In this document: positions 4,072 to 63,797 of the stretch, piece after piece | Position numbering within the stretch: position 1 is the first letter of the stretch | Layout of the letters: each line of letters begins with the position of its first letter | Program-made: the position numbers and the translations under genes | Origin: Thermothelomyces thermophilus ATCC 42464 | Lineage: Eukaryota > Ascomycota > Sordariomycetes > Sordariales > Chaetomiaceae | Assembly (NCBI RefSeq): GCF_000226095.1 | Contig: NC_016474.1 | Coordinates: 124,001 to 188,000, forward strand | Length of the DNA stretch: 64,000 bases | Direction of reading: 5' to 3' | Notes under the pieces: generated by a model | What the model was told of the DNA's origin: nothing | The model's database searches: none | Seen by the model: the letters and a program-made list of their open reading frames with translations, nothing else

Positions 4072-4749
4072 ATAGCTAATTATATTCCTAGGAATTGTTA
4101 TAATCTTAAATATAAACGATATACTATTATAATTAAGATTAAGTAAGAGGGTTATAAAGTTACTATATCTTATAAGCGTTATTAGAATACGAAGCTACGA
4201 AAGCATTATATAATAATAAAGAGTTTAAACAAGTATTAAAACTATATTTATATAGGTAAGAAGTATAGTAGTCTAAACGTTATAGATACCTATAGGTTCC
4301 TCGTTATTTTCCTTTGTAGTCTTAGGTTACTAACTATCTTAGTCCTTTCGAATTTGTTAGAGCAAGAGAAGGTTTCAAGGGAGATTACTAAGACCAAGGT
4401 ATTACTTGCTTAGACATTAAGCCGTTTAAGTCGATTACGTCGTTTATAGCAATCCCTGCGCGATCGTAGTACCAAAGTTTTTCGTCGTAGCGTAGCTCGT
4501 CTAGAGGAGGAGGAAGAGCTAAATACTCCTTTGCCGATGTTAGAGACGTAAACCCTCGCGGGTTAGGCTTAGGCGTTAGGTGCTTTTGATATGCTTGATT
4601 AGGAGTCGATTAGGTTAGATCCTAGTCCTAATTCTAGCAGGTTCCTTTCTTTTTCTATTAGGGAATAGGCTTTAGAGCCGGTTTTTATAGCTAGTTAGGA
4701 TTTTACTAATAGAACTGCTTTAGTACCTTAAGGCAATTTAGGTTTTTAA
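4072..4749 (+). pseudogene. E1 antisense ORF (six-Cys protein), opposite to gag-pol
   Basis: A 678-nt reading frame on the strand opposite E1 gag-pol, between pol and the 3' LTR. The start is ATA where X has ATG (ATAGCTAAT against ATGGCTAAT), and the stop is TAA 4747-4749. The length equals that of the matching frames in E2 and X. Cys codons of the N-terminal motif have largely become Tyr. The last 65 nt overlap the end of pol tail to tail. See the X copy for the best-preserved reading; the function is unknown. Confidence 0.75.
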
Positions 4750-12900: not shown

Positions 12901-13468
12901 CCTTAGGCAAGGACTAGAGGTTATAGTGCCAAGAGTAGTAGTCAAAGCAGAACAAATGTATATACTATATAAGAAGCTTAAAAAAGAACTCGAGTTTGTT
13001 AGAACTAGAATAAAGAACTATTACAATAAATATAAGCTCGAGGGACCTCGCCTAGAGAGGGGAGACAAAGTCTACCTAATCGTACGAAACCTACGAACCA
13101 AACGACTAAACACGAAGCTAGACTTTAAAAAGGTCGGACCCTTTGTTATCAAAGAACGAATCTCGACATCTAACTACTAACTATCGTTACTGTCATCTAT
13201 ACAACCATAGATAGATGTTTTTTATATTTCACTTCTCGAACTAGCACCGAAGAATGCTAAGGTTGCTATATATATCGAAGTAGAGGACAAAGAGGAAGAA
13301 TAGGATATTAAAGAAATCCTAGATTTACGTATTATTAATGGAGAACTATAGTACCTAGTTAAATGGCTTAATTTTAGACTAGAAGATAACTTATAGGAAC
13401 TAGTTAAGAACCTAAGTTGCCCTAAGAAACTAGAGTAGTTCTATTGGCAGAATCCTAACCGGCTATAA
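9941..13468 (+). pseudogene. E2 pol, RIP-inactivated
   Basis: A 3528-nt frame, -1 relative to gag, starting at ATA for ATG just before the protease active site (LVDSK for LVDSG). RT carries VDYRQLNE and the active site VYYLDDIL. RNase H reads VETDALDYTIGG, YDKELLTIV and ENVRADALS. Integrase has the MDFI, TKFVSKFW and TNRQTEQLN blocks of the DDE core. The chromodomain (LDLRIINGELQYLVKW with Q as TAG) ends before TAA 13466-13468. A clean local stretch at 12926-13180 covers the end of integrase. Stops are almost all RIP-type. Confidence 0.9.
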
Positions 13469-14081
13469 GAACCGGCTCTAAAGCCTATTCCTTAATAGAA
13501 AAAGAGGGGAACCTGCTAAAATTAGGATCGGGATCTAACCTAACCGACTCCTAATCGAGTATATTAAAAGTACCTAATGCCTAAGCCTAACCTGCAAAGG
13601 TCTATGTCTCTGACACTAGTAGAGGAGTATCTAATTCTTCCTCCTCCTCTAGATAAGCTATACCACGACGAAAAACCTCGGCATCACAATTGCGTAGGGA
13701 TTGCTACAAACGACGTAATCGACTTAAACGGCTTAGTGTCTAAGTAAGAAGTGCCTCGGTCTTAGCAATCTCTTTTGAAACCTTCTCCTACTTTAATAAA
13801 TTCGAAAGGACTAAGATAGTCAGTAACCTAGGACTACAAAGGGAAATAACAAGGAACCTATAGGCATCTATAACGTTCGGGCTACTATACTTCTTGCCTA
13901 TACGAACATAGTTCTAATACTTGTTCAAACCTTCTATCATTATATAATGCTTTTGTAGCTTCGTATTCTAATAACGCTTATAAGGTATAGCGACCTTGTA
14001 ACCCTCTTGCTTAATCTTGATTATAATAGTATGTCGTTCGCGCTTAAGATCGCGACGGTTCCTAGGAACACGATTAGCTAT
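13404..14081 (-). pseudogene. E2 antisense ORF (six-Cys protein)
   Basis: A 678-nt minus-strand frame, again with ATA for the start codon (ATAGCTAATCGTGTTCC) and TAA at the end. It overlaps the end of E2 pol by 65 nt. Most motif Cys codons read Tyr, consistent with G-to-A change of TGT. Preservation of length and frame in three copies argues that it was a real gene before RIP. Confidence 0.76.
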
Positions 14082-28791: not shown

Positions 28792-31700
28792 ATGGCGATT
28801 TCGTCCCCAGCGACCGCCGCAGCGCCGGCCGCAGCACCGTCACCACCATCATCATCAGCTGCACCATCATCAGAAGCACCATCAGCAACAGCAGCACCGC
28901 CGGCTGCATCTTCTGCCATGGCCAACTCCGTCGCCGAAAAGGAGACAGCCGCCGAACCGGATCCTGATCCCTGGCCGCAAATCGAGCACAACTACTTCAC
29001 CTCGATGCGCCTGCACCGCGAGCGAGAGGACGCCGCCCTCGCCGAGGCATACCACGCCAAGACGGACCCGCTGCGCCAGCGGCTCGTCGACAATTACAAC
29101 GCCCAGGCGGAGCTGCTGCGGCAGCTGCGGGCGCTGCGGGAGCAGTACGACACCGCCCAGGCCGAGCTGGGCGCGCTGGAGGAGGAGTGGCAGGTGCTCA
29201 TGGACGAGAAGAGGCGCGAGCGCGAGCGCGAGGACGAGGAGCGGCGCGCGTGGTTCCGCAAGTACCGGAGGGGCGGCCTGGCTTATCGTGGGGCCGGGGC
29301 TGCTACCGCGACCGCTACCGCTACTGCTACTGCTACTGCTACTGCTACTGCTACTGCAGCTGATGCTGATGCTGCTGCCAATGGTAGTGACGTGAATGGG
29401 CAAGGGAATGCCGAACGGGACGGCGAGCGGAGGAAAGTCGGGGATAGCCGGGTCGACGGTCTCGATAAGGGTGGAGAAGGGGAGGTCGAAGCTGAGGTTT
29501 CCAACGGACAGCAATCGCAGGCCCAGGCAAATGGGGAGGAGCAGAGGCGGGAGGAGAATGAGCCTGAGAGTGAGGGCAGTGGCGAAGAGCATGACAAGGG
29601 TGCCGTTGAGCAAGAGCAGAGAAACGGCATGGAAGTGGACGCGCAACCGAGTGCGCTCGCGAAGAGTGTGGAAGTCCTGGGCTTTGCTCAAGGCCGCGAG
29701 AAGGGGCAGGAACACCGACAACCTGCCAACGGGGATCGGGACGCGCCGGGCGTGCCATCGTCTGTGAACGATCACACGGAGAAGCCTCGGTTCGAGCCGG
29801 AGAAAATTGATGATGATAAGAGGGTATCTGATGGACAGGGAGACACTGTATCAGAAGACCGACCCACGAATGAGCACTCCTCGCCGCCTGTGGCTGGGCA
29901 AGGGGAAGGGGAGTCCCGGACAGTCGAGGCATTGAGGGCGGATGAGCGCGCCAAAAGCTCGCTAGCCGAGAGGAACACGGCGGAAGCTGTGCCCTCGGTT
30001 CCCCCCGGCAAAAGCATCGAAATGGACAGCTCTGAAACTGTCAATGGGGCTGACCTTCCCCGACGCATCGTATCACCACCAACGACCGAGGCCGGATCTC
30101 CTGTTGAGTCGCGAATGCGGGATCAACAACCAGAGAGTGCAGAACCAACCGCAGATGCTCAGCAGGGAGGAATCGAGCTTACCCAAAATGCTTCAAGAGT
30201 TGAAATATCTGGCATCAACGGGACAGTTGGGAGAAGGGATGGGGATGGGGATGTGGAAATGCCGGACGCCCAAATACGGCCGGAGAACGATACAAACGGT
30301 GCACTGGGCAACGATAGGCCCCAAGCTGCGTCGGCTGCTCTTGGAGCCCCAGCCTCCCCCTCCTCGTCATCCGAGCTGAGCTCGCGCAATACGACCCCCG
30401 AACTGGACACCCCAGTATACTTGGGCAGGGATCCGAGCCCGTCCGAGACACCAGAACAGAAGTCCTTAGGGAACATTGAAATCCTCGGGGAGTCAGGCGA
30501 TCCGATTGGGCGAGTAAAGGCAGAAGACTTTGGAAACAGTGTAATGAGCCGCATTGTCCAATTGCCGGTCAAACGGCCGGTCCAGATCCGCTCTGGCCGC
30601 AAGTTCACTACCGACGATCTCGACGCCGTCGAGCGTCCGGAACCAGGCAATGCTAGACCGTCCAGATTCGTTAGCCTTTTTGTCCAGGCAACAGGTGAGC
30701 TGCAAGCCCGGCCCTGCTTGGACTGCACTGCCGACGGCGGTCCCTACTTGGACTGTGTCATGGTCGATGATCCCGAGTTCCCTCGGTGCGGAAACTGCGA
30801 GTGGAATCAGCGGTGTTGCCAAGGAGGCACTACGGAGCGCCCTTCTGATTCGCGCCAAAACCTCACGAGCAAGCCGCCGGCGGATTCGCCTACCAAGAGG
30901 CGCGCGTCAAGCAGCGGCCCCACGGCTATAGACCCCGCAGCAGAGAATCGAGAGAGCAGGGAAGAGTTGAAGCCCTCGACCAGCAACTCGGACGGACGAG
31001 ATAGCAGGGAAGCGGCCACGAAGAAGGGCCCGCGGAAGTCGCTTCCGGGTAGTCGAAATGTACCGCTGCCATCGACCCCTTCAACATCCTTCCAGGATGA
31101 AGGTGAACTGCTGCCCGAGATCACCAAGGACGTCCTTTCTCTCAAGCATGACGGGGTTGTGTTTACAGATCCGCCCATTATGCGCGGCGTGCCACTGGCC
31201 AAGATCTCGCCAGAGCACCCCTATTGGGAGCCCGACTGGAAGCCGCTCGAGGAGATCGTGGAGCCGGTGTGGCAGAAACACCAGGAAAGGTATGACCAGC
31301 TCGAAAGGTCGGGAACGACGTACCGTGACAAGCACTTGGCGAACCGAGACGCGAAGCGCGGCCGCCTCATTCTCAAGTTCCTGGAGGAGGGCGAGTTGCA
31401 CCCGTACCAACTGGTCGGGAAACAATGGATCAATCACAGGCTCACCAACTACGATACGCTCTACCGGCTGGCGCAACTGCTGACTGACGAGCTGCCCAAG
31501 ATGAATCTGGACGTCACCCCGTCGGAATGGCTACGCCACCGGCTGCACGAGTTGTATCTGGAGCACGGGGACAAGCTCGACGTGGCCAACTGGATAAGGA
31601 GAGCGTACCACGACCGCAAGATCGAACAACTCCGGTTGAAGAACGGCTTTCCCCGCGTCGGGCGCCCGCCGGCTCACGCATCCAAGAGCACGGAGCCCGG

Positions 31701-32687
31701 CGGTAGCAGTAAGAAGGCGACGGGGCCGCGGTCGCTGAAGCGCAAAGACCCGCACCAAACGCCAGAGTCGACACCGAGCAAGTCAAAGACGGGCAGCACG
31801 TTGAGAGAATCCCCTTCGGTAGCATCGGATGCAGGGTCGTCATCGGCAGCGGCAACAGCAAAGACAGGGGGGCCAGGGCAGCAGCCCAAACCGAAGAAGA
31901 TCAAGATCATCACGAGCCAGCCCCAGCTCCAACCCAGCAGCAAGCCCCCATCGACCAAGGCTCCCAAGATCATTTTGAACAGCCCGTATCCGCCATCCGC
32001 CACCAGCGACAAGGCGCCCGCTTTGAAGGGCAGCCGGGCTGCAGCCAAGGGGAAGGAAGACGACCAGGGCTCGGCGCTCGAATACGACGGATACACCTCG
32101 AGCGACTCCATCAGCGGCGACACGCTGCACGTCAACGACTGGCGGCTGCACCAGGTCAAGACGCGCACGTTTGCGACCAACCCGCAAGTGACGCAGTACT
32201 GGCACTGGGTGACGGAACAGAAGGAGCACAACCTGATCGAGCACCAGGTGCTCGAGTCGGTGGGGCCGCCGGTCAAGTGGTCCATCTTCAAGAGGCCGTA
32301 CAATTTCCACCTGAAGCTGCCCGACATCCAGGAGGTGTCGTTCGCGAGGGCCAGTAACAGGGTGGTGGTGACGCATCGCAAGGGGAGGGACGGTAAGGAC
32401 CTGGCTCCGCGGGGAGACATTATGGCCGAGTTCAAGCGGGACAGGACGAAACGCAGGTTCTTGACCTTCCTGCGTCGGGATAAAGGAGTCAAGGTTATCG
32501 AGCTGTCGAGGTAGGTTTTTTGCAAGAGGGTTCTTTTTTCTCTTTTTTCCCCTTGTTTCCTTGTTTCTCCATCTGTGTGATCATGGTTGGCAATGGATGC
32601 TAATGCCGCGCTTTGCACAGGGAGGCGATCGAGGCCAAGTGGAATTCTCTCTCTCCCGAGACTCTCCCTGGCCCGGACTCGGATTAG
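28792..32687 (+). CDS. Large DUF3716-like Cys-cluster protein, probably nuclear (function unknown)
   Basis: Two exons, 28792-32510 and 32621-32687, give 1261 residues. The 110-bp intron (GTAGGT ... GCTAAT ... CACAG) joins LSR to a 22-residue end, EAIEAKWNSLSPETLPGPDSD; without the splice the frame stops at TAG 32512. The N-terminus is Ala/Pro/Ser-rich, then a charged coiled-coil-like stretch (about 60-150), an Ala-Thr repeat (about 171-190) and a long acidic, disordered part. Six or seven Cys at 642, 645, 655, 666, 669 and 675/676 form a CxxC-C-CxxC-C cluster of the fungal DUF3716 type (recalled, not searched). A Trp/His-rich segment (about 800-960), a Lys/Pro-rich linker and a conserved-looking C-terminal domain (about 1110-1240, NDWRLHQVKTRTF, YWHWV) follow. 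A second ATG at 28918 (GCCATGG) could be the true start. Chromatin or DNA binding is only a guess from basic and Cys-rich segments. Confidence 0.85.
29303..29360 (+). repeat. GCTACT-type coding microsatellite
   Basis: A run of ACCGCT/ACTGCT hexamers inside the DUF3716-like gene encodes alternating Ala-Thr, followed by a short GATGCT-type Ala-Asp run. The length is a multiple of three, so the frame tolerates changes in repeat number. Confidence 0.8.
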
Positions 32688-43790: not shown

Positions 43791-44429
43791 ATAGCTAATT
43801 ATATAAGAAAGAAGTCGAAATCTAAACCTGCTATATCGACTCTTTGTACTAATTACCTTCTTATGGCGATTCTTTCTTTAGATAGCCTTTTAATAATGCG
43901 TCCTTGCTTGCTATATAAGTCTAAAGGCCTCAGTTTATATAAGGTCTCGAAAGCCGATTCTTCTCGATATATAGAGTATATCTATAATAAATGCTTAAAT
44001 TGTAACGTTCTTGGTGTCTCCCCTACTTAGCTTCGGTCTATCGCGGCTTAGTATTAGAAATTTAAGGATAAACTTATAGCTACTAAGGAGCAAGTCCTTC
44101 GTCTTCGGAAATAAAAACGCATATGGTTTAAGAAGATAATAAGGGCTATTACTTAGGGTATTGACAGTATGGAGGAGTTAGAGCAAGTAGAGCGTAAGGA
44201 GGCTACGGCGGCGGTGGTAGTAGAGGCTTCTAGGGTTACTATGTCCTCCTCGACCCTATCTTGCCTGTCTGCCGATTTCGGACAGCTTTAGGATACCGTA
44301 TATCCTAAAGTTCCTTTAGATCTGTCCTTACTAGCTAATTTCGGGTTAGTCTCTGGTTTATTGCTTTCGGTCGATTAGGGTTCCTCTAGTAGAACTGCTA
44401 AAGTTTCTTAAGGTAATTTAGGTTCTTAA
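43791..44429 (+). pseudogene. Y antisense ORF (family-2 Cys-rich protein)
   Basis: A 639-nt frame on the strand opposite gag-pol, with start ATA for ATG (ATAGCTAATTATATAAG) and stop TAA 44427-44429. The product has C19, C40, Y43, Y51, Y60, Y63, C68 and C71, where the Tyr codons TAT/TAC probably were Cys. The spacing resembles CxxC-C-CxxC-C. A Lys-rich helix and an acidic Ser-rich tail follow. It overlaps the end of pol by 191 nt. The same frame and length occur in Z. Confidence 0.72.
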
Positions 44430-52100: not shown

Positions 52101-52386
52101 CAAAGAAATCTTAGATTTACGAGTCATTAATAGAGAACTATAATATCTAGTCAAATGGCTTGATTTTAGACTAGAAGATAACTTATAGGAACCCGTCAAG
52201 AACCTAAATTACCCTAAGAAACTTTAGCATTTCTACTAGAGGAACCCTAATCGACCGAAAGTGACAGACTAGAAACTAACCCAAAATCGGCTAGCAAAGA
52301 CGGATCCAAAGGAACTTTAGGATACACGGTATCCTAAAGCTGCCCGAAATTGGCAGACAAACGAGATTGGGTCGAAGAAGATATAG
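49075..52386 (+). pseudogene. Z pol with 114-codon in-frame deletion in RT
   Basis: Starts at an intact ATG before LVDS and overlaps gag by 40 nt. Colinear with E2 pol except for 342 bp missing at 49907/49908 (E2 10774-11115), which removes the RT fingers and palm up to just before the YxDD block (YYLNDIL here). Downstream RNase H, integrase and chromodomain are colinear without further indels. The end is placed at the TAG 52384-52386 shared with Y; an earlier TAG at 52270 is CAG in Y. Confidence 0.85.
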
Positions 52387-52834
52387 TAACCCTAGAAGTT
52401 TCCGCTGCTGCCGCCGCCTTAGCCTCCTCACGCTCTACTCGTTCTAACTCCTCCACACTATTAATACCCTAAGTAATAGCCCTTATTATCTTCTTAAACT
52501 ATATCCGCTTTTATTTCCGAAGACAAAGGACTTGCTCCTTAATAGCTATAAGTTTATCCTTAAGTTTCTAATACTAAGCCGTGATAGAACGAAGCTAAGT
52601 AAGGGAAACGCTAAGAACGTTACAATTCGAGCATTTATTGCAGACGTACTCTACGTATCGAGAAGAGTTAGCTTTCGAGACCTTATATAAACTAATGCCT
52701 TTAGACTTATATGGCAAACAAGGATATATCGTTAAAAGGCTATCTAAAGAAAGAATCGCCACAAGAAGGTGATTAGTACAAAGAGTCGATATAGTAGGTT
52801 TAGATTTCGACTTCTTTCTTATACGATCAGCTAT
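52196..52834 (-). pseudogene. Z antisense ORF (family-2 Cys-rich protein)
   Basis: A 639-nt minus-strand frame, ATA for ATG (ATAGCTGATCGT) to TGA 52196-52198, colinear with the Y copy. It reads CLPYKSKG then YVEYVCNKCSNC, keeping more Cys than Y in the second cluster. It overlaps pol by 191 nt. Confidence 0.74.
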
Positions 52835-56188: not shown

Positions 56189-56639
56189 TATAACGAACCC
56201 AACTCAGACTACTTCTAAAAGGGTCCAGACGGAGGTAGGTTGAGCGGGACAAGCAGGCAGGTCGTCTAAGGGATTCGGTAAAGCCAAAGGGTTCACAACA
56301 ACACTTAGAGTTATCTCTTATAGTAATTAGCAATACTTGGTATGAGTACTGTGATTATGATTGTTACCACTAGTGAACTCCCAGAGTCTACTATAACGAG
56401 TGACTATTTACATGTATATATACTTCTGCCGATCGCTTATAGTCCCTTTCTATCCTGCCCTTGGATCGCCTTTAGTAGCTAGCTATCCTCTGCTATCTTT
56501 CCTTTTGGCAATTGTTCGCCCGTGGTAGCCCGTGCTCCCTAGCGATCTTGTGTTAGCCTTGCTTCGTGCCCTTCTTGATTAGTAGCTCATTCAGCCTGCT
56601 GCACCCCACCAGGTCGCGGTATATGGTTAGCTCGTGACA
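56189..56639 (-). repeat. 3' LTR of X
   Basis: A 451-bp LTR, TATAACGAACCC (from TGTGACG) to CTCGTGACA. In element orientation it is preceded by the polypurine tract AAAGAGGGGGCATCG. Confidence 0.93.
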
Positions 56640-56755
56640 CGATGCCCCCTCTTTAGGGCTTTCAACCCGAAAGCTTCTTATGACTTGTTTCAAATACTAC
56701 TAACACCCCCTTTTTCTAGTAGGTAACATCCTTCTTCCGCTAACTTCCTTTTGCT

Positions 56756-57433
56756 ATGGCTAATCGTGTTCCTAGGAATCGTTACAATCTCAAACGCGAA
56801 CGACACGCTATTGCGATTAAGATTAAGCAAGAGGGTTACGAGGTCGCTATACCTTGTAAGCATTGTTAGAATGCGAAGCCGCGAAAGTATTATATAATAA
56901 TAGAGGGTTTAAACAAGTATTAAAACTGTGTTCGCATAGGCAAGAAGTATAGTAGTCCGAACGTTATAGATGCCTATAGGTTCCTTGTTATTTTCTTTTA
57001 TAGTCCTAGGTTGCTAACTGTCTTAGTCCTTTCGAATTTGTCAGAGCAAGAAAAGGTTTCAAAAGAGATTACTAAGACCGAGGCGTTACTTGCTTAGACA
57101 TTAAGCCGTTTAAGTCGATTACGTCGTTTATAGCAATCCCTACACGATCGTGGTACCGAAGTTTTTCGTCATGGTATAGCTCGTCTAGAGGAGGAGGAAG
57201 AACTAGATACTCCTCCGCCGATGTTAGAGACGCAGACTCTTGCGGGCCAGGCTTAGGCGTTAGGTGCTTTTGACGTGTTCGATTGGGAGTCGATCGGGTT
57301 GGATCCCGGTCCTAATTCTAGCAGGTTCCCCTCTTTTTCTACCGGGGAATGGGCTTTAGAGCCGGTTCTTATGGCCGGTCAGGATTCTGTCGGTAGAACT
57401 GCTCTAGTTTCTCAGGGCAATTCAGGTTCTTGA
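56756..57433 (+). pseudogene. X antisense ORF encoding a six-Cys, coiled-coil, acidic-tail protein
   Basis: Best-preserved copy of the family-1 antisense gene: ATG 56756, TGA 57431-57433, 678 nt. The start MANRVPRNRYNLKRERHA is basic. Cys positions are 34, 37, 46 (Tyr), 55 (Tyr), 58 and 65 (Tyr), giving CxxC-x8-C-x8-CxxC-x6-C when TAT is read as mutated TGT. A helical, Leu/Arg-rich segment (SRLSRLRRL) and an acidic stretch (RLEEEEELDTP) follow, then a Ser/Gly-rich end. Internal TAG/TAA codons are RIP-type. It sits between pol and the 3' LTR on the opposite strand and overlaps the pol end by 65 nt. Zinc binding is inferred from the spacing. Confidence 0.78.
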
Positions 57434-60400
57434 TAGGTTCCCATGAGTTATCTTCTAGTCCGAAATCAAGCCATTTGACTAGGTACTATAGTTCTCTATT
57501 AATAATGCGTGAATCTAGAATTTCTTTGACGTCCTATTCTTCTTCCTTATCTTCTACCTTAATATATATAGTAACCTTAGCGTTTTGCGGTGCTAGTTTG
57601 AGAAGTGAAATATAAAAAATATCCGTCCGTAGTCGCATAGATGATAGTAACGATAGTTGGTAGTTAGATGTCGAAATTCGTTCTTTGATAACGAAGGGTC
57701 TAACCTTCTTGAAGTCTAGCTTCGCGCTTAGTTGTTTGGTTCGTAAGTTTCGTACGATCAGGTAGACTTTGTCTCCCCTCTCTAGGCAAGGTCCCTTGAG
57801 CCTGTGTTTGTCGTAGTAATTCTTTATTCTGGTTTTGACAAACTCGAGTTCCTTTTTAAGCTTTTTATATAGTGCGTACATTTGTTCTACTTTGACTGTT
57901 ACTCTTGGCACTATGACCTCTAGTCCTTGCCTAAGGTCTACTTTATATCTATAGTTCGCGAAGAACGGTGTGACTTTAGTTATTTCCGTTAGCATTGTAT
58001 TATAAGCGAGTTATACTATTAGTAATAGTATGACCTAGTCGTCTTGCTAGTAGTTAACGTAAGAACGGAGATATTGCTCGACAACTTGGTTTAGTCGCTC
58101 CGTTTGTCTGTTAGTCTATAGGTGATATGCCGTTAACAGCTTACTATTAACGCCTAATCGTTATATTAACGCTTGCTAGAACTTCGATACGAACTTGGTG
58201 TCTCTATCGGTGATCTATTCTTGCGGCCAAGCATACACTGATGTAACTTGCCGATAGATCACGTCTACTAACTGTTCCGCTATCTAGGACTCCTTATAGG
58301 GAAAGAAGTATGCCCATTTAGTCAGGCGATCTACTATAGTAAGAATACTATCGTAGATTACTCTTATAGCCGTGTCCTTGGATTCTGGCAGCTTTGTAAT
58401 GAAGTCTATTGTAATTAAACTCTATGGTTTGTTAGCTGTTAGTAGTAGCTAAAGTAGCCTATATAGCTTATATTATGCCGTTTTGCTTCGATTGTAGATA
58501 TTATAGTTCCGTACGACTTCCTTAACTCGTACTGTTAACTATAGAAAGTCGTAGTGTTTCTTAACTTATGCGATAGTCTTTGTAACTCCTTTGTATCCTC
58601 CGAGTTTCGACTCGTAGAGCTCTCGAATCATCCATAGCTATTGGTCTTTATCGTAGATATACGCTTTACCTCGGTACTAGAGTTTCCTATCTTTTTCTTC
58701 TACTCCGTTAGGTACTAGTGGTCTAGGTACTACTTAATACTATGCCTTGTTAATCCTTTTTCCTCGAAAGATTGCGTAGTATTCTAGGAACGAGTCAAGT
58801 AGATTATCTTCCACGGGTATCTGTATTTCGTGATATAGCGTTCCGTCTATTCGCTCCTTAAATAACGGTGGTGTTGTTTCCGTTCGTCCTTCTATATGAT
58901 CCGTTCGTCAGCTTAAAGCGTCCGCTCGTATGTTCTCTTTGCCCTTCTTGTAGCGGATCTCAAAGTTAAATTCCGCGAGGAATTCTACCTATCGTATTTG
59001 TCGTCCGTTGAGCTCCTTCGTCGTCGTAAAGTATTGCAGGTTCTTATAATCTGTATATACTTATACCGGTTTAATCGTACTACTAAGGTATAGTCGCCAT
59101 TCCTTGAAAGCTTCGACAATCGCAAGTAGTTCCTTATTATAGATTAGATAATTAAGACATAGTCCGTCGAGTTTTTTTAAAAAGAAGGCTATAGGATATA
59201 GCTTTCCTTGTCCGTCTCGTTGTCCTAATTGTCCTCTGATAGCGTAGTCTGAAGCGTCCGTTTCTACCTTGAATAGCTTCTTAGGGTCTAGCAGTACTAG
59301 TACTAGATCTTTAGTAATGGCATTCCGGATCTACGTAAATGCTTGCTCGTGTTACTCTTCCTATTAGAATTTAGTATTCTTCTTAGTAAGCTTGTACAAA
59401 GGTCGTACGATCGCTCTAAAGTTCCTAATAAACATCTGGTAGAAGTTTACAAATCCGATGAAACTTCGTACTTCCGTAACTGACGTCGGTCGTAGCCAAT
59501 TCTTAATAGCTTTAACCTTTGAAGGTTCTATCCGGATTTGTCCTAGGGATATTTTATATCCTAAAAAGACTATCTTCCTAATATGGAATTTGCTCTTTTC
59601 CTTGTTAACTGATAGCTTGTATATATATAGCGTGTCTAATACTGCTTTTACGTGCTTCCGGTGTTTGTCTATCGTCTTAGAGAAGATAAGTATGTCGTCG
59701 AGATAACATACCGTAAATTTGTCGAGAAAGGGTCAAATAGCTTAATCAATTAGGGCTTAGAACGTTGCCAGCGCGTTTGTAAGTCTAAATGGCATGACAA
59801 GGTACTTGTAGTGGCTATAGGGTGTCCTAAAGGCCGTTTTCCACTTGTCGCCTTCTTTGATCTATATATAGTTGTAGGCTGATGGCAAGTTAAGACGTAT
59901 AAAATATTAGGCTCCTGCTAACTGATCTCAGAGCTATGAGATTAGTAGTAACGGGTATCGATTTTTCACGGTCTGTTCGTTAAGTTACCGATAGTCGACA
60001 TATAACCGTAGCTTTCCATCTTTCTTAGGCATAAATAGGATTAGGTAGCCTACTAGCGATATCGACAGGTAGATATATCCTCTTCGAAGGTTCTCCTTTA
60101 AATATCGCTTAAGTTCTTCGTTCTATATCTAGCTTATGTAGTAAATCTTAAAGAACTTTAGTCGTGCTCCTTCCTTAAGCTTGATCTCATGATCCTATAG
60201 GCCGTGTTCTAGTAGTCCTTCTAGATATTTTGGTTCGAATGCTAGGTATCCTTTATATTCCTTCGGTACTTCCCTAGTCTTGTCTCGTCTCTCGGTTTTC
60301 TAGTAGTATACGAACTTGGTTCTATCTATAGCGATGCTAGCGATTTCTCCTATCTTAACCTACTACTCCTATTACAGTGCTCCGCATTTGTCAACAGAGA

Positions 60401-60896
60401 GAATAGCTATTGGCGATTTAGCTCGTTCCTCCTATCGCGATATCGATGTCGTTATGCCGCCTCTTCCAGAGTCTATAGTAGTCTGCCTACTACTGTCCGT
60501 CTCTTACGGTAGATCCGTAGGACATGCCTTTCCTTAAGCATCGTCTACTCGTGATCTTTGTACGCTCCCTATCTTGCTAGTCAAATACGACTCTGTTTAG
60601 GGTTATAGGTAGCTACTATTCTTCTAGCTAATGTCCAGGTCGTAGTCTTCATACTATAGTAACCTTAATATTATATCTTTATCGTTACCTATATCTATAA
60701 TACTAAATATAACTGCTATAGTCTTTCCTACTATAGTAATGTCGATTAGTTTAGTCTCCCTACGTACCTATTACGTTGGAAATAGCCCTTTGACTATACT
60801 ATACTTCCGCTTTATTCTCTAGGGTATCTATAGCTAATTTACAAGTGTCGGCGAAATCAGATTTATCTTTACTCTACTATCTACTAGTACGAGCAT
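57369..60896 (-). pseudogene. X pol, RIP-inactivated
   Basis: 3528 nt from ATG 60896 (MLVLVDSR, protease active site with Gly changed to Arg) to TAA 57369-57371. RT, RNase H, integrase and chromodomain blocks are as in E2. An open stretch at 57534-57995 covers the integrase end (ERGDKVYLIVRNLRTKQL). The protein ends WEPIKNLNCPEKLEQFYRQN-like, typical of chromodomain elements. Confidence 0.9.
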
Positions 60897-63319
60897 TTCG
60901 TGCTGTTTCCATTATGCTATTATCTATAATCGCTTGTCTTGCCGCCGTCGTCTAAAGATTGCGGCAATTTCTTATATTTCTGCTAGGAGGTCTCGATATA
61001 GTGGTCTCTTACGCTAGTTCCTCCTGTACTACGTTACTACTCGCTGCTACGTAGACGTTAATAGTTTCCGGGCCCCTTGAAGGGCCCTGACCCGTTTCCT
61101 AGGTTAGTGCTAACCTCTTCGGTTATTCGGCTGATAGTGGCTTCGTCGATCGTGCTCATTTCCGTGAGCTATTAAGTGCTTGCGGCTTCCTACCATTAGG
61201 TCCGTTCTGCTTTTCGTCGTACGTACTATAGCTTCGTCTAAAGCTCCCGAATTTGTAATTTCTTTTCTTCCGTATAATAGAGGTAATTGTTGCTCTAGCA
61301 CGAGTCTTATATATCTCGTCTGGTTCCGTAGTACCTAGGCTAGGCTCGTTTTAGAACTACTATGATGCTTTCTAAATTGCGGGCTTCGATCTTCTAGAGT
61401 AATTCGGCCGCTCTGTTTCCTGTATCGTAGACCTATTCTACAGGGCGTAAGCTTCTGTCCTCATTTCCTTGTCAGGTTAGCTAGTGATTGTTTTCGAATT
61501 TGTCGCGGAAGTGGTATCGGCATTTGTGTGCCATACACTGGAACCAGGGCACTTGTACATGTGCCTCGTGTCGAGGGTGCAGTCGTATAGCGTTACCTAG
61601 AAGGTATTAGAACTCTTTCCCGAATCCTTCCCATTATACGTAGATTGTAGATACTCTAGTGCTAATATAGGAGTATTTCTTCTAGTAGCTTTCCTATATA
61701 CGTTTGTCTTTCCTGCGGTTTACGTGTATAAACTAGTATTCTAGGTTCCGTATATCGTTACTAAGTTACTAATTGTCAAGGTACCTAGCGTAGCTATTAG
61801 GTCTATTATATACTATAAGCTATTCTCCTTTAATGGTTTCTACGATACGTCGGAGTTCCCTTATTTCGTCCCTTATTTTATCGCTCTACTAGGCAAGTCG
61901 AATCAAGCGTTTATCCCGTTTGTATAGTTCTATGTTAAGTCGGAAAACTTCGTTACGGTGCCATTCGATTCGTTCCTAGAGGAATAAAGCATTAGGTCCG
62001 GGTCTTTCGATTCCTTAGGTGTCGGTTGTCTACGATCTATCCTGCCTCTATGTGACTATGAAACCCTACTGCCTCAAGGCTAGGAGAATCGAAACTAGCG
62101 GTATATACTCTCCTGCTATATCCTATTCGGCAAGACCTGTCTCTGGGTTTATAGTGACCAGTTCGGAGTATAGTGCTTGTTTGTCTTCACTATCGCCGTC
62201 GTATCCGAGACTATCTATATCACTATCCTTGTCTTCGTAGCTTGTAGCTGCTACTTCGGTAACGTTCTTGGTAGTTTTATCGATATCCGCGATTTCTTTT
62301 CTAGGGACTGGCTTCTACTCTTTCTTTAGGCTTCGGCATTCTCGCTTGTAGTGCCCTTTCTTTCCGTAGTTATAGTAGGTAACATTAGACTTGTCTTTAG
62401 TTGTCTTCTTCCGGTCCTGCTTCTATGCTACATCTATATCTATAGCTCTAGGGTATGTCCTATACAAGGTACTAACGTACGCTCGCTTTTTCTTGTCGTT
62501 AGCCTTAACCGTAGTTCCGTTCATTTGACCTCGTTTCTGCTACTCTTATATGTAGAGTCGATCATCGATCCTAATAGCCTATACGATATATTTGTCTAAA
62601 GTCTTAGGCCGATCGTACTTATATAGCTTGTCCTTAACCTTTTCCTTTAAGCCATTATAGAATAATTATATTAGCGCCTTGTCGTTAAGCTAAGACTTAA
62701 GTATATCCTATCTAAACTATATAGCGTAGGAGGCTACTAACTTGGTCTATCGGAGATTGGCAAGTCTTTCTTGTGTATGAATCTTCTTATCCTTATTGCC
62801 AAAAACCTTCTAAAGCTCTTCTTTGAAACGGTCGTAAGATCGGAAGACTGCCTATATAAACGCGTCTTGGTCGTCTTTGTCTTCCTTAGTGAGGTAGTCG
62901 TTCTATATAGGCTCAAACTATCTAAGTGCCTTACCCTCTAGTCTCGTAGCTATATAAAGGACTTTGGCTTTATTATCCGGAAACTTGTCATCGTTAAGCT
63001 AGAAGTAGGATCGGAGGTTTGTCAGGAATGCTGCAAGATCCTCCTTAGTTCCTCTATATTTGTTAGGTAGTTCGATCTTGATGTACTTTGCTTTGGCGCC
63101 CTTAAGTGCCTCGATTTTGGCGTAGGCCTTGTTAACCAACTTCTACGAGTACTTTTCGCGGTTCTCGAGTTCCTTGATTCGAGCTTAAGCAGCCTTGTCT
63201 CTCTAGTCCAACTCCTAAACCCGCTGCTGGAGTTGACCAAGCTAAGTGAGCAGCTATTCGGCCGTGACGTCGGTAGCCATATTGATATCAAGGTCGAAGT
63301 TACCTCCGTTCTGAACCAT
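60857..63319 (-). pseudogene. X gag, long form, RIP-inactivated
   Basis: 2463 nt from an intact ATG (MVQNGGNFDLDINMATDVTA) to TGA 60857-60859. The capsid-like region spans about codons 90-260. The CCHC knuckle is at codons 315-328 (first two Cys read Tyr; H323 and C328 kept). A second cluster, C595, C600, H603 and H611 (QCMAHKCRYHF, NNHW), lies in an extra 490-codon region before protease. A gag of 820 residues is much longer than that of most Ty3/gypsy elements. Confidence 0.84.
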
Positions 63320-63330
63320 AATAGAACAAA

Positions 63331-63346
63331 GGGAGTAGTAACAACG
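63331..63346 (-). other. Primer-binding region of X
   Basis: Sixteen bases between the 5' LTR and gag. AGTAGTAACAA on the plus strand matches the LTR stretch AGTGGTAACAA (minus strand, 63519-63529) at 10 of 11 positions, the remaining pair being a possible G-U. That stretch lies just downstream of the LTR TATA tract (63564-63580), consistent with self-priming. Confidence 0.5.
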
Positions 63347-63797
63347 TGTGACGAACCTAACTCAGACTGCTTCTAAAAGGGTCTAGACGGAGGTAGGTTA
63401 AGCGGGACAAGTAGGCAGGTCGTCTAAGGGATTTGGTGAAGCTAAAGGGTTTATAACAACACTTAGAGTTGTCTCTTATAGTAATTAGCAATGCTTGGTA
63501 TAAGTACTATGATTGTAATTGTTACCACTAGTGAACTCCTAGAGTCTACTATAACGAGTGACTATTTATATATATATATACTTCTACCGATCGCTTATAG
63601 TCCCTTTCTATCCTGCCCTTAGATCGCCTTTAGTAGCTAGCTATCCTCTGCTATCTTTCCTTTTGGCAATTGTTTGCCTATGGTAGCCTGTACTCCCTAG
63701 CGATCTTATGTCAGCCTCGCTTCGTGCCCTTCTTGATTGGTGGCTCATTCAGCCTGCTGCACCCTACCGGGTCGCGGTATATAGTTGGCTCGTGACA
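63347..63797 (-). repeat. 5' LTR of X
   Basis: A 451-bp LTR with intact TGTGACGAACC and GTGACA ends, containing a TATATATATATA promoter tract; adjacent to TSD copy TTTAG. Confidence 0.94.

Follow-up and report, generated by a model that had tools for sequence, protein, structure and literature searches.

An antisense gene between pol and the 3' long terminal repeat of chromoviruses in Thermothelomyces thermophilus, possibly encoding a regulator of its own element

The locus and its antisense gene

The window analysed here, a stretch of 64,000 nucleotides of Thermothelomyces thermophilus (C3:124001-188000; the genome searched comprises 38.7 Mb on 7 contigs), contains several Ty3/gypsy retrotransposons, one of which, the E1 element, carries an open reading frame (ORF) next to its left long terminal repeat (LTR) (Table 1). 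The minus-strand position of the reverse transcriptase (RT) and integrase-end pieces of E1 makes the left LTR its 3' LTR, and the plus-strand frame at 56756-57433 is accordingly antisense to gag-pol. Comparison with its relatives identifies this frame as a decayed copy of a genuine antisense gene of a Ty3/gypsy chromovirus.

An initial annotation of the window had described three frames of 678 nt and two of 639 nt that run antisense between pol and the 3' LTR, a placement confirmed by the strand of RT and integrase, the LTR pair and the alignments of copies. Its statement that the frame occurs in all five gypsy copies is correct for the window and understates the extent of the family, as the genome contains 72 matches of the 639-nt kind and, for the E type, no fewer than 150. 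Three features were absent from that annotation: an intron, a tail-to-tail overlap with the chromodomain end of pol, and the separation of the element into a conserved body and a variable part made up of U3 and the antisense gene.

The gene keeps its position at 70 of 70 loci (40 E, 30 I/Y; the check covers these two types, with L071 and L072 left out): the ORF is flanked on its 5' side by an LTR and on its 3' side by pol, which is on the opposite strand. The tail-to-tail overlap of pol and the antisense gene amounts to 194 nt in the I type and ~125 nt in the F type; in the decayed E1 copy of the window it is 65 nt, the first stop past the chromodomain being at 57369-57371. The pol tail of an I copy contains a clear chromodomain (Chromo PF00385, E 3.5e-15). 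As in the class of antisense ORFs designated aORF-3R, the gene is antisense to gag-pol and placed between pol and the 3' LTR, is apparently present in most family copies and is under coding constraint.

Decayed and intact copies

The E type has 150 or more matches in its own genome, where 150 of 260 candidates were scored. Three of these lack stops in their first 125 residues, and among the full-length copies the least decayed ones examined contain two internal stops. For comparison 43 copies were extracted and 42 used, L001 being the window copy again. These 42 copies contain 369 internal stops at 18 codon positions, and all 369 are found where another copy has CAR, TGG or CGA. Every one is thus compatible with repeat-induced point mutation (RIP), as had been proposed from the window copies. 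Codons that are a stop in every E copy number zero in the antisense frame vs 3 to 8 in each of the other five frames. The equal lengths noted before within families hold for 36 of the 42 copies, which measure exactly 678 nt; the remaining six have indels at one T-run within the predicted intron.

Intact relatives exist in the same genome. With the homologue P0003 as query and 150 of 202 candidates scored, 72 matches were listed, the last three short and weak, and 15 of the 72 are full length and stop-free. In these 15 ORFs, the I type (L041-L055), 4 of 639 nt are polymorphic, and identity to L041 is 99.7-100%. Copies Y and Z of the window are decayed members of this kind and align with the intact 639-nt gene over all 639 positions. 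Among I-type elements, the two 414-bp LTRs of L071 are 100% identical to each other, and gag and pol of L072 are long open frames. The 20 polymorphic sites in 864 nt of pol of the I copies fall in blocks, with the antisense frame nearly uniform; this distribution suggests recombination.

The F type emerged from a query with the pol tail, for which 150 of 905 candidates were scored; 18 copies with a stop-free pol tail are among those scored (L073, L075-L091; the decayed F-like copy L074 is left out of this count). Their exons differ by one substitution and no indel, which marks the copies as young and uninformative on selection. The I and F copies are recently amplified intact groups beside RIP-decayed relatives in one genome. 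The further types G (L094, L095) and H (L096, L097, L099) have the same R-U5 and other antisense genes, so that at least five gene types are distinguished. Locus L098 was left out of the comparisons. At L096, an I-like coil fragment (3-137) adjoins the H-type element, which suggests nesting or a further type.

Introns

The antisense gene of the F type consists of two exons. After removal of an intron of 66-80 nt with the ends GTAAGC...CTAG, all 18 copies encode one identical protein of 196 residues; with the intron retained, none of the 18 is open, its length being 0, 1 and 2 modulo 3 in 9, 4 and 5 copies, respectively. The E type has a 51-nt intron candidate that matches the F intron in phase and lies within ~1 residue of its position. 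Its donor reads GTAGGT in 14, ATAGGT in 27 and ATAGAT in 1 of the 42 copies, its branch site RCTRAC is kept in 40 and its acceptor TTAG in 41. Removal of this candidate reproduces the junction of the own-genome gene model P0001, itself possibly a computed model, and improves the profile match to the family from E 1.8e-6 to 2.3e-7. E-type indels are confined to the intron, and transversions common to at least two E copies number 4 in its 51 nt vs 1, which is synonymous, in 627 exon nt. The G gene apparently has two exons as well. The I type has no intron at the E/F position; if one was lost precisely there, a spliced antisense RNA may have been reverse-transcribed.

Selection on the antisense frame

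The comparison of F with G (180 codons) gives 0.435 non-synonymous (dN) and 1.398 synonymous (dS) substitutions per site, a ratio of 0.31. The differences are distributed over the three codon positions as 60/57/102, and as 59/51/97 outside the pol overlap (p 1.6e-4), with dS saturated. In five of six shifted-frame controls of this pair dN exceeds dS, the exception being exon 1 shifted by two (dS 0.72, dN 0.62). The antisense frame has the largest contrast between the proportions of synonymous (pS) and non-synonymous (pN) differences, 0.71 to 0.35 in exon 1 and 0.79 to 0.40 in exon 2, with no stops; of the three reverse-strand frames, the one whose third positions coincide with it reaches pS 0.68 / pN 0.34 and 0.66 / 0.45, with three stops in each exon. 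Only the antisense frame, of the six, is stop-free in both exons in this comparison.

A comparison of one I copy with 17 decayed ones counted transversions only and found 6 synonymous and 6 non-synonymous, where 80% non-synonymous are expected (p=0.018). The other five frames yield ratios of 0.56 to 2.8; for pol, read in its own frame, the ratio is 0.13. Where pol and the antisense gene overlap (4 events), constraint is seen in neither frame. E-type transversions number 4 and 5 vs 81% non-synonymous expected (p 0.07). Judged by these codon patterns, the antisense protein frame is under purifying selection. The initial annotation named two outcomes that would count against it, intact relatives in which the antisense frame is closed and substitutions that bear no mark of such selection; both were checked, and neither was observed.

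The encoded protein

The predicted product begins with a basic stretch, carries six Cys in a Zn2Cys6-like cluster and a long helix, and ends in an acidic tail. The cluster, helix and tail had been recognized in the window copy and are seen on intact relatives, whose antisense frame is open: in 15 of the 72 own-genome matches to P0003, in 18 of 18 F copies after intron removal, and in full-length proteins from sources outside the own genome, the latter found by a family profile search. This search retrieved 213 related proteins at E<=0.1; the organisms named among the 120 relatives listed are Sordariomycetes. Among these 120 aligned members the cluster is covered in 107, and all six Cys are retained in 91. 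Among members picked for the Cys pattern, the N-terminus is positive in 83% of 71 and the tail negative in 98.5% of 68. A number of gene models annotated as 'hypothetical protein' in Sordariomycete genomes would, as this family suggests, be retrotransposon genes.

Zn2Cys6 domains follow the spacing C-x2-C-x6-C-x5..12-C-x2-C-x6..9-C. The F-type spacing, C-x2-C-x6-C-x8-C-x2-C-x6-C, fits this pattern; across the family the first x6 is 7 in 74 of 91 members and 6 in 17. Structure models predict the cluster and the long helix at a block-mean predicted local distance difference test (pLDDT) of 89-98. The weak matches of a 139-residue model in the PDB include Zn2Cys6 DNA-binding domains in 4 of the 5 listed, and such domains also make up the rows listed for a second-look search (5 of 5) and for the full-length model (3 of 3), where the matches are weak too. 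The Pfam domain Zn_clus is above the cut-off in none of the 120 members (11 at E<=1, best 0.073), and the F-type piece scores 13.1 bits against a cut-off of 21. DUF3716 is the Pfam domain that fits the Cys region of the E type best, with E 0.014 to 0.045 in three sequences; it remains under its curated cut-off (best 15.7 bits vs 22) and is not listed for P0123 or the F type.

In another genus, six Pyricularia oryzae relatives (P0038, P0056, P0074, P0082, P0086, P0095) have differing N-terminal halves, with the Cys cluster and the start of the coil, and almost identical C-terminal halves, and some models from this species differ by an in-frame insert of 19 residues. Both are signs of mosaicism and splicing there.

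Conserved body and variable parts of the element

Compared with the intact I element, E1 shows 0 to 0.010 transversions per nt in each 200-nt window across pol and gag, and the initial 200 nt of the LTR fall in the same range; transitions in these windows run from 0.075 to 0.24, consistent with RIP. From LTR position ~225 to ~1125, the region of U3, leader and antisense gene, transversions are 0.22-0.35, and the U3 window of the 5' LTR is raised too (0.165). The F and I types share 96.6% identity over 1324 nt of R-U5 and gag start and 97.6% over 1001 nt of RT. The part-by-part comparison of these two gives 0.97 for R-U5, 0.52 for U3 (null 0.44), 0.72 for the leader (null 0.48) and 0.51 for the gene (null 0.48); the leader is thus of middling conservation and U3 slightly above shuffles. 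H is absent from this comparison, its LTR motif not having been found, and enters one other comparison only. According to these alignments, elements that are near-identical elsewhere diverge most in U3 and in the antisense gene.

F and G, with a dS of 1.4 in the antisense gene, differ by ~4% in R-U5, the part of the body compared for G. A protein that evolves fast would not thereby acquire a higher dS, so the divergence is most simply explained by exchange between older lineages. The LTR and leader of G resemble those of H (82-85%), and the antisense genes of the two are different, so that the U3 part and the gene can also separate. Elements with nearly identical bodies and different U3 and antisense genes amount to a natural exchange experiment, which makes the function of the gene testable in vitro and with reporters.

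Proposed function

The preferred reading, held with a probability of about 0.62, is that the gene is a real chromovirus gene encoding a small nuclear DNA-binding regulator of its own U3, with U3 and gene as a control module. Transcription would start from the 3' LTR or the leader on the strand opposite gag-pol and be followed by splicing. The product would be a small nuclear protein in which a basic N-terminus and a Zn2Cys6-like cluster are combined with a coiled-coil helix for dimerisation and an acidic tail. It may bind DNA and thereby adjust transcription from the U3 of its own element. Because U3 and the antisense gene vary most between near-identical elements, the two may work jointly as the control module of the element, which would be exchanged via template switching in reverse transcription. 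The broader proposal of the initial annotation, in which an antisense promoter would drive a regulatory or accessory protein, is plausible. A bolder version, advanced tentatively and considered rather unlikely, makes the U3 half and the gene an immunity-like module for self-recognition: the protein would act on the matching U3, resident copies would control newcomers with the same module, and a module swap onto the same gag-pol body would provide escape, similar to repressor/operator exchange in phages.

The same protein could instead be a nucleocapsid-like or integration/assembly accessory factor, that is, a nucleic-acid chaperone or a partner of Gag, Pol or the chromodomain, and not a transcription regulator. 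The basic N-terminus and the Cys-rich cluster would also suit binding of RNA or cDNA, and the long helix would suit assembly; however, the weak structural neighbours are Zn2Cys6 DNA-binding domains, the tail is acidic, and joint variation with U3 is not predicted for such a factor, which makes this role unlikely. An origin by capture of a host transcription-factor gene, carried along as a passenger that the element does not need, would account for the fungal Zn2Cys6-like layout. It fits poorly with a place and orientation identical at all 70 loci of the two types checked, with at least five divergent gene types at one place beside one R-U5, and with purifying selection, and a capture of this kind appears very improbable.

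Antisense transcripts of LTR elements can yield small interfering RNA (PMC7264820, in the part cited here), and the gene overlaps the 3' end of pol. The RNA itself could thus be the functional product, through double-stranded RNA, small RNAs or interference with pol transcription, with the frame secondary. Such a role alone requires neither purifying selection on the protein nor six conserved Cys, nor does it require that 18 copies yield one protein solely after removal of a frame-breaking intron; an RNA-only function is therefore improbable, and antisense RNA action may occur in addition to that of the protein. That the frame is a by-product of the codon composition of the opposite strand, or of chance, deserves mention, as other long minus-strand frames are also open in the same stretch of an intact copy and shuffles of the I-type stretch contain a frame of >=212 codons in 6 of 2000 cases. 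Homologues, selection, the stop pattern and the F intron nevertheless single out the antisense frame, which lies mostly outside pol and is the sole one to stay open through both exons between F and G, and the probability of this explanation is close to negligible.

Comparison with known antisense genes

The gene brtn was reportedly described by Zhao et al. in 2011. It is the antisense gene of Boty-like chromoviruses of Botrytis cinerea and Sclerotinia (PMC7264820, PMC4227169, PMC8365987, PMC5987419). According to the cited passages, it resembles the present gene in running antisense close to the pol/3' LTR end, in a fungal gypsy carrier with a chromodomain in gag-pol; an intron, a Zn2Cys6-like cluster and an exchange of types are not mentioned for brtn in these passages, and the two are likened by description, not by sequence.

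Plant gypsy elements contain antisense ORFs (aORFs) such as gene23 of Grande, that of RIRE2 and TRP28 of Retand, and gene23 has its own promoter (PMC7264820, PMC11963269). These excerpts describe an antisense ORF between pol and the 3' LTR in most copies and propose a nuclear or DNA-binding product, as here. They describe no six-Cys cluster for the plant aORFs, and Retand differs in belonging to a non-chromovirus lineage and in its domain PF04195, which is not among the Pfam matches obtained here.

The HBZ protein of human T-cell leukaemia virus type 1 (HTLV-1) is made from a spliced transcript and has a basic leucine zipper (bZIP) and a coiled coil. Its gene exemplifies the antisense genes of deltaretroviruses (PMC7264820, PMC11963269). 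HBZ, as portrayed in the sources cited, is antisense, expressed from the 3' LTR and nuclear; the present gene is likewise antisense, and for it a start in the 3' LTR, splicing, a coiled coil and a nuclear product are predicted. Here the Cys cluster takes the place of the bZIP, the host is a fungus, and the likeness is one of layout, not of sequence. The fungal Zn2Cys6 factors HAP1, PPR1, PUT3 and Leu3 also have a Zn cluster followed by a coiled-coil helix, and the F-type spacing follows the Zn2Cys6 pattern given above. The antisense protein is much smaller, no Pfam Zn_clus match comes near the cut-off, and the likeness is one of layout.

Plants and Boty already provide antisense genes at this place in the element, so the kind of gene is not new. 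New, as far as the literature on antisense ORFs in LTR elements and on this host was seen, are the intron, the switching of types and the Zn2Cys6-like layout; no search was aimed at exchange of U3 with the antisense gene. The cited parts of the literature report no established function for antisense genes of LTR retrotransposons. The present genome contains, among the matches listed, 33 copies with an intact antisense gene in two types, and the F intron provides a clean test of expression.

Further features of the window

Table 1. Features of the E1 element and related antisense frames in the window
Feature	Position	Strand	Basis
E1 element, Ty3/gypsy with two ~447-bp LTRs, 92% identical	~56193-63797	gag-pol on -	
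5' LTR of E1	63351..63797	-	LTR pair comparison
3' LTR of E1	56193-56639	-	LTR pair comparison
Putative R-U5 half of 3' LTR, kept across element types	56193..56412	-	boundary placed at similarity break
Putative U3 half of 3' LTR, strongly diverged across element types	56413..56639	-	type comparison
Leader, 3' LTR to antisense ATG	56640..56755	+	comparison of E copies and of element types
E-type antisense gene, decayed copy, ATG to stop, 678 nt	56756..57433	+	42 copies compared
Six-Cys cluster, some positions Tyr in the decayed window copy	56855..56950	+	gene model P0001, family conservation
Predicted in-frame intron, 51 nt, E type	56976..57026	+	splice signals over 42 copies; donor changed in window copy
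pol C-terminal part spanning chromodomain	57369..57842	-	alignment; chromodomain named on intact relative
Integrase-end piece, match to SH3_Tf2-1	57537-58010	-	Pfam match
Reverse transcriptase piece	59367..59732	-	RVT_1, E 7.5e-12; fixes sense strand of element
Second E-type copy of antisense frame	4072..4749	+	sequence match, 678 nt
Third E-type copy of antisense frame	13404..14081	-	sequence match, 678 nt
I/Y-type antisense frame, decayed, 639 nt	43791..44429	+	intact relatives L041-L055
I/Y-type antisense frame, decayed, 639 nt	52196..52834	-	intact relatives L041-L055

Away from the retrotransposon stretches, the GC-rich part of the window contains an open frame of 1240 codons at 28792-32514 (+).
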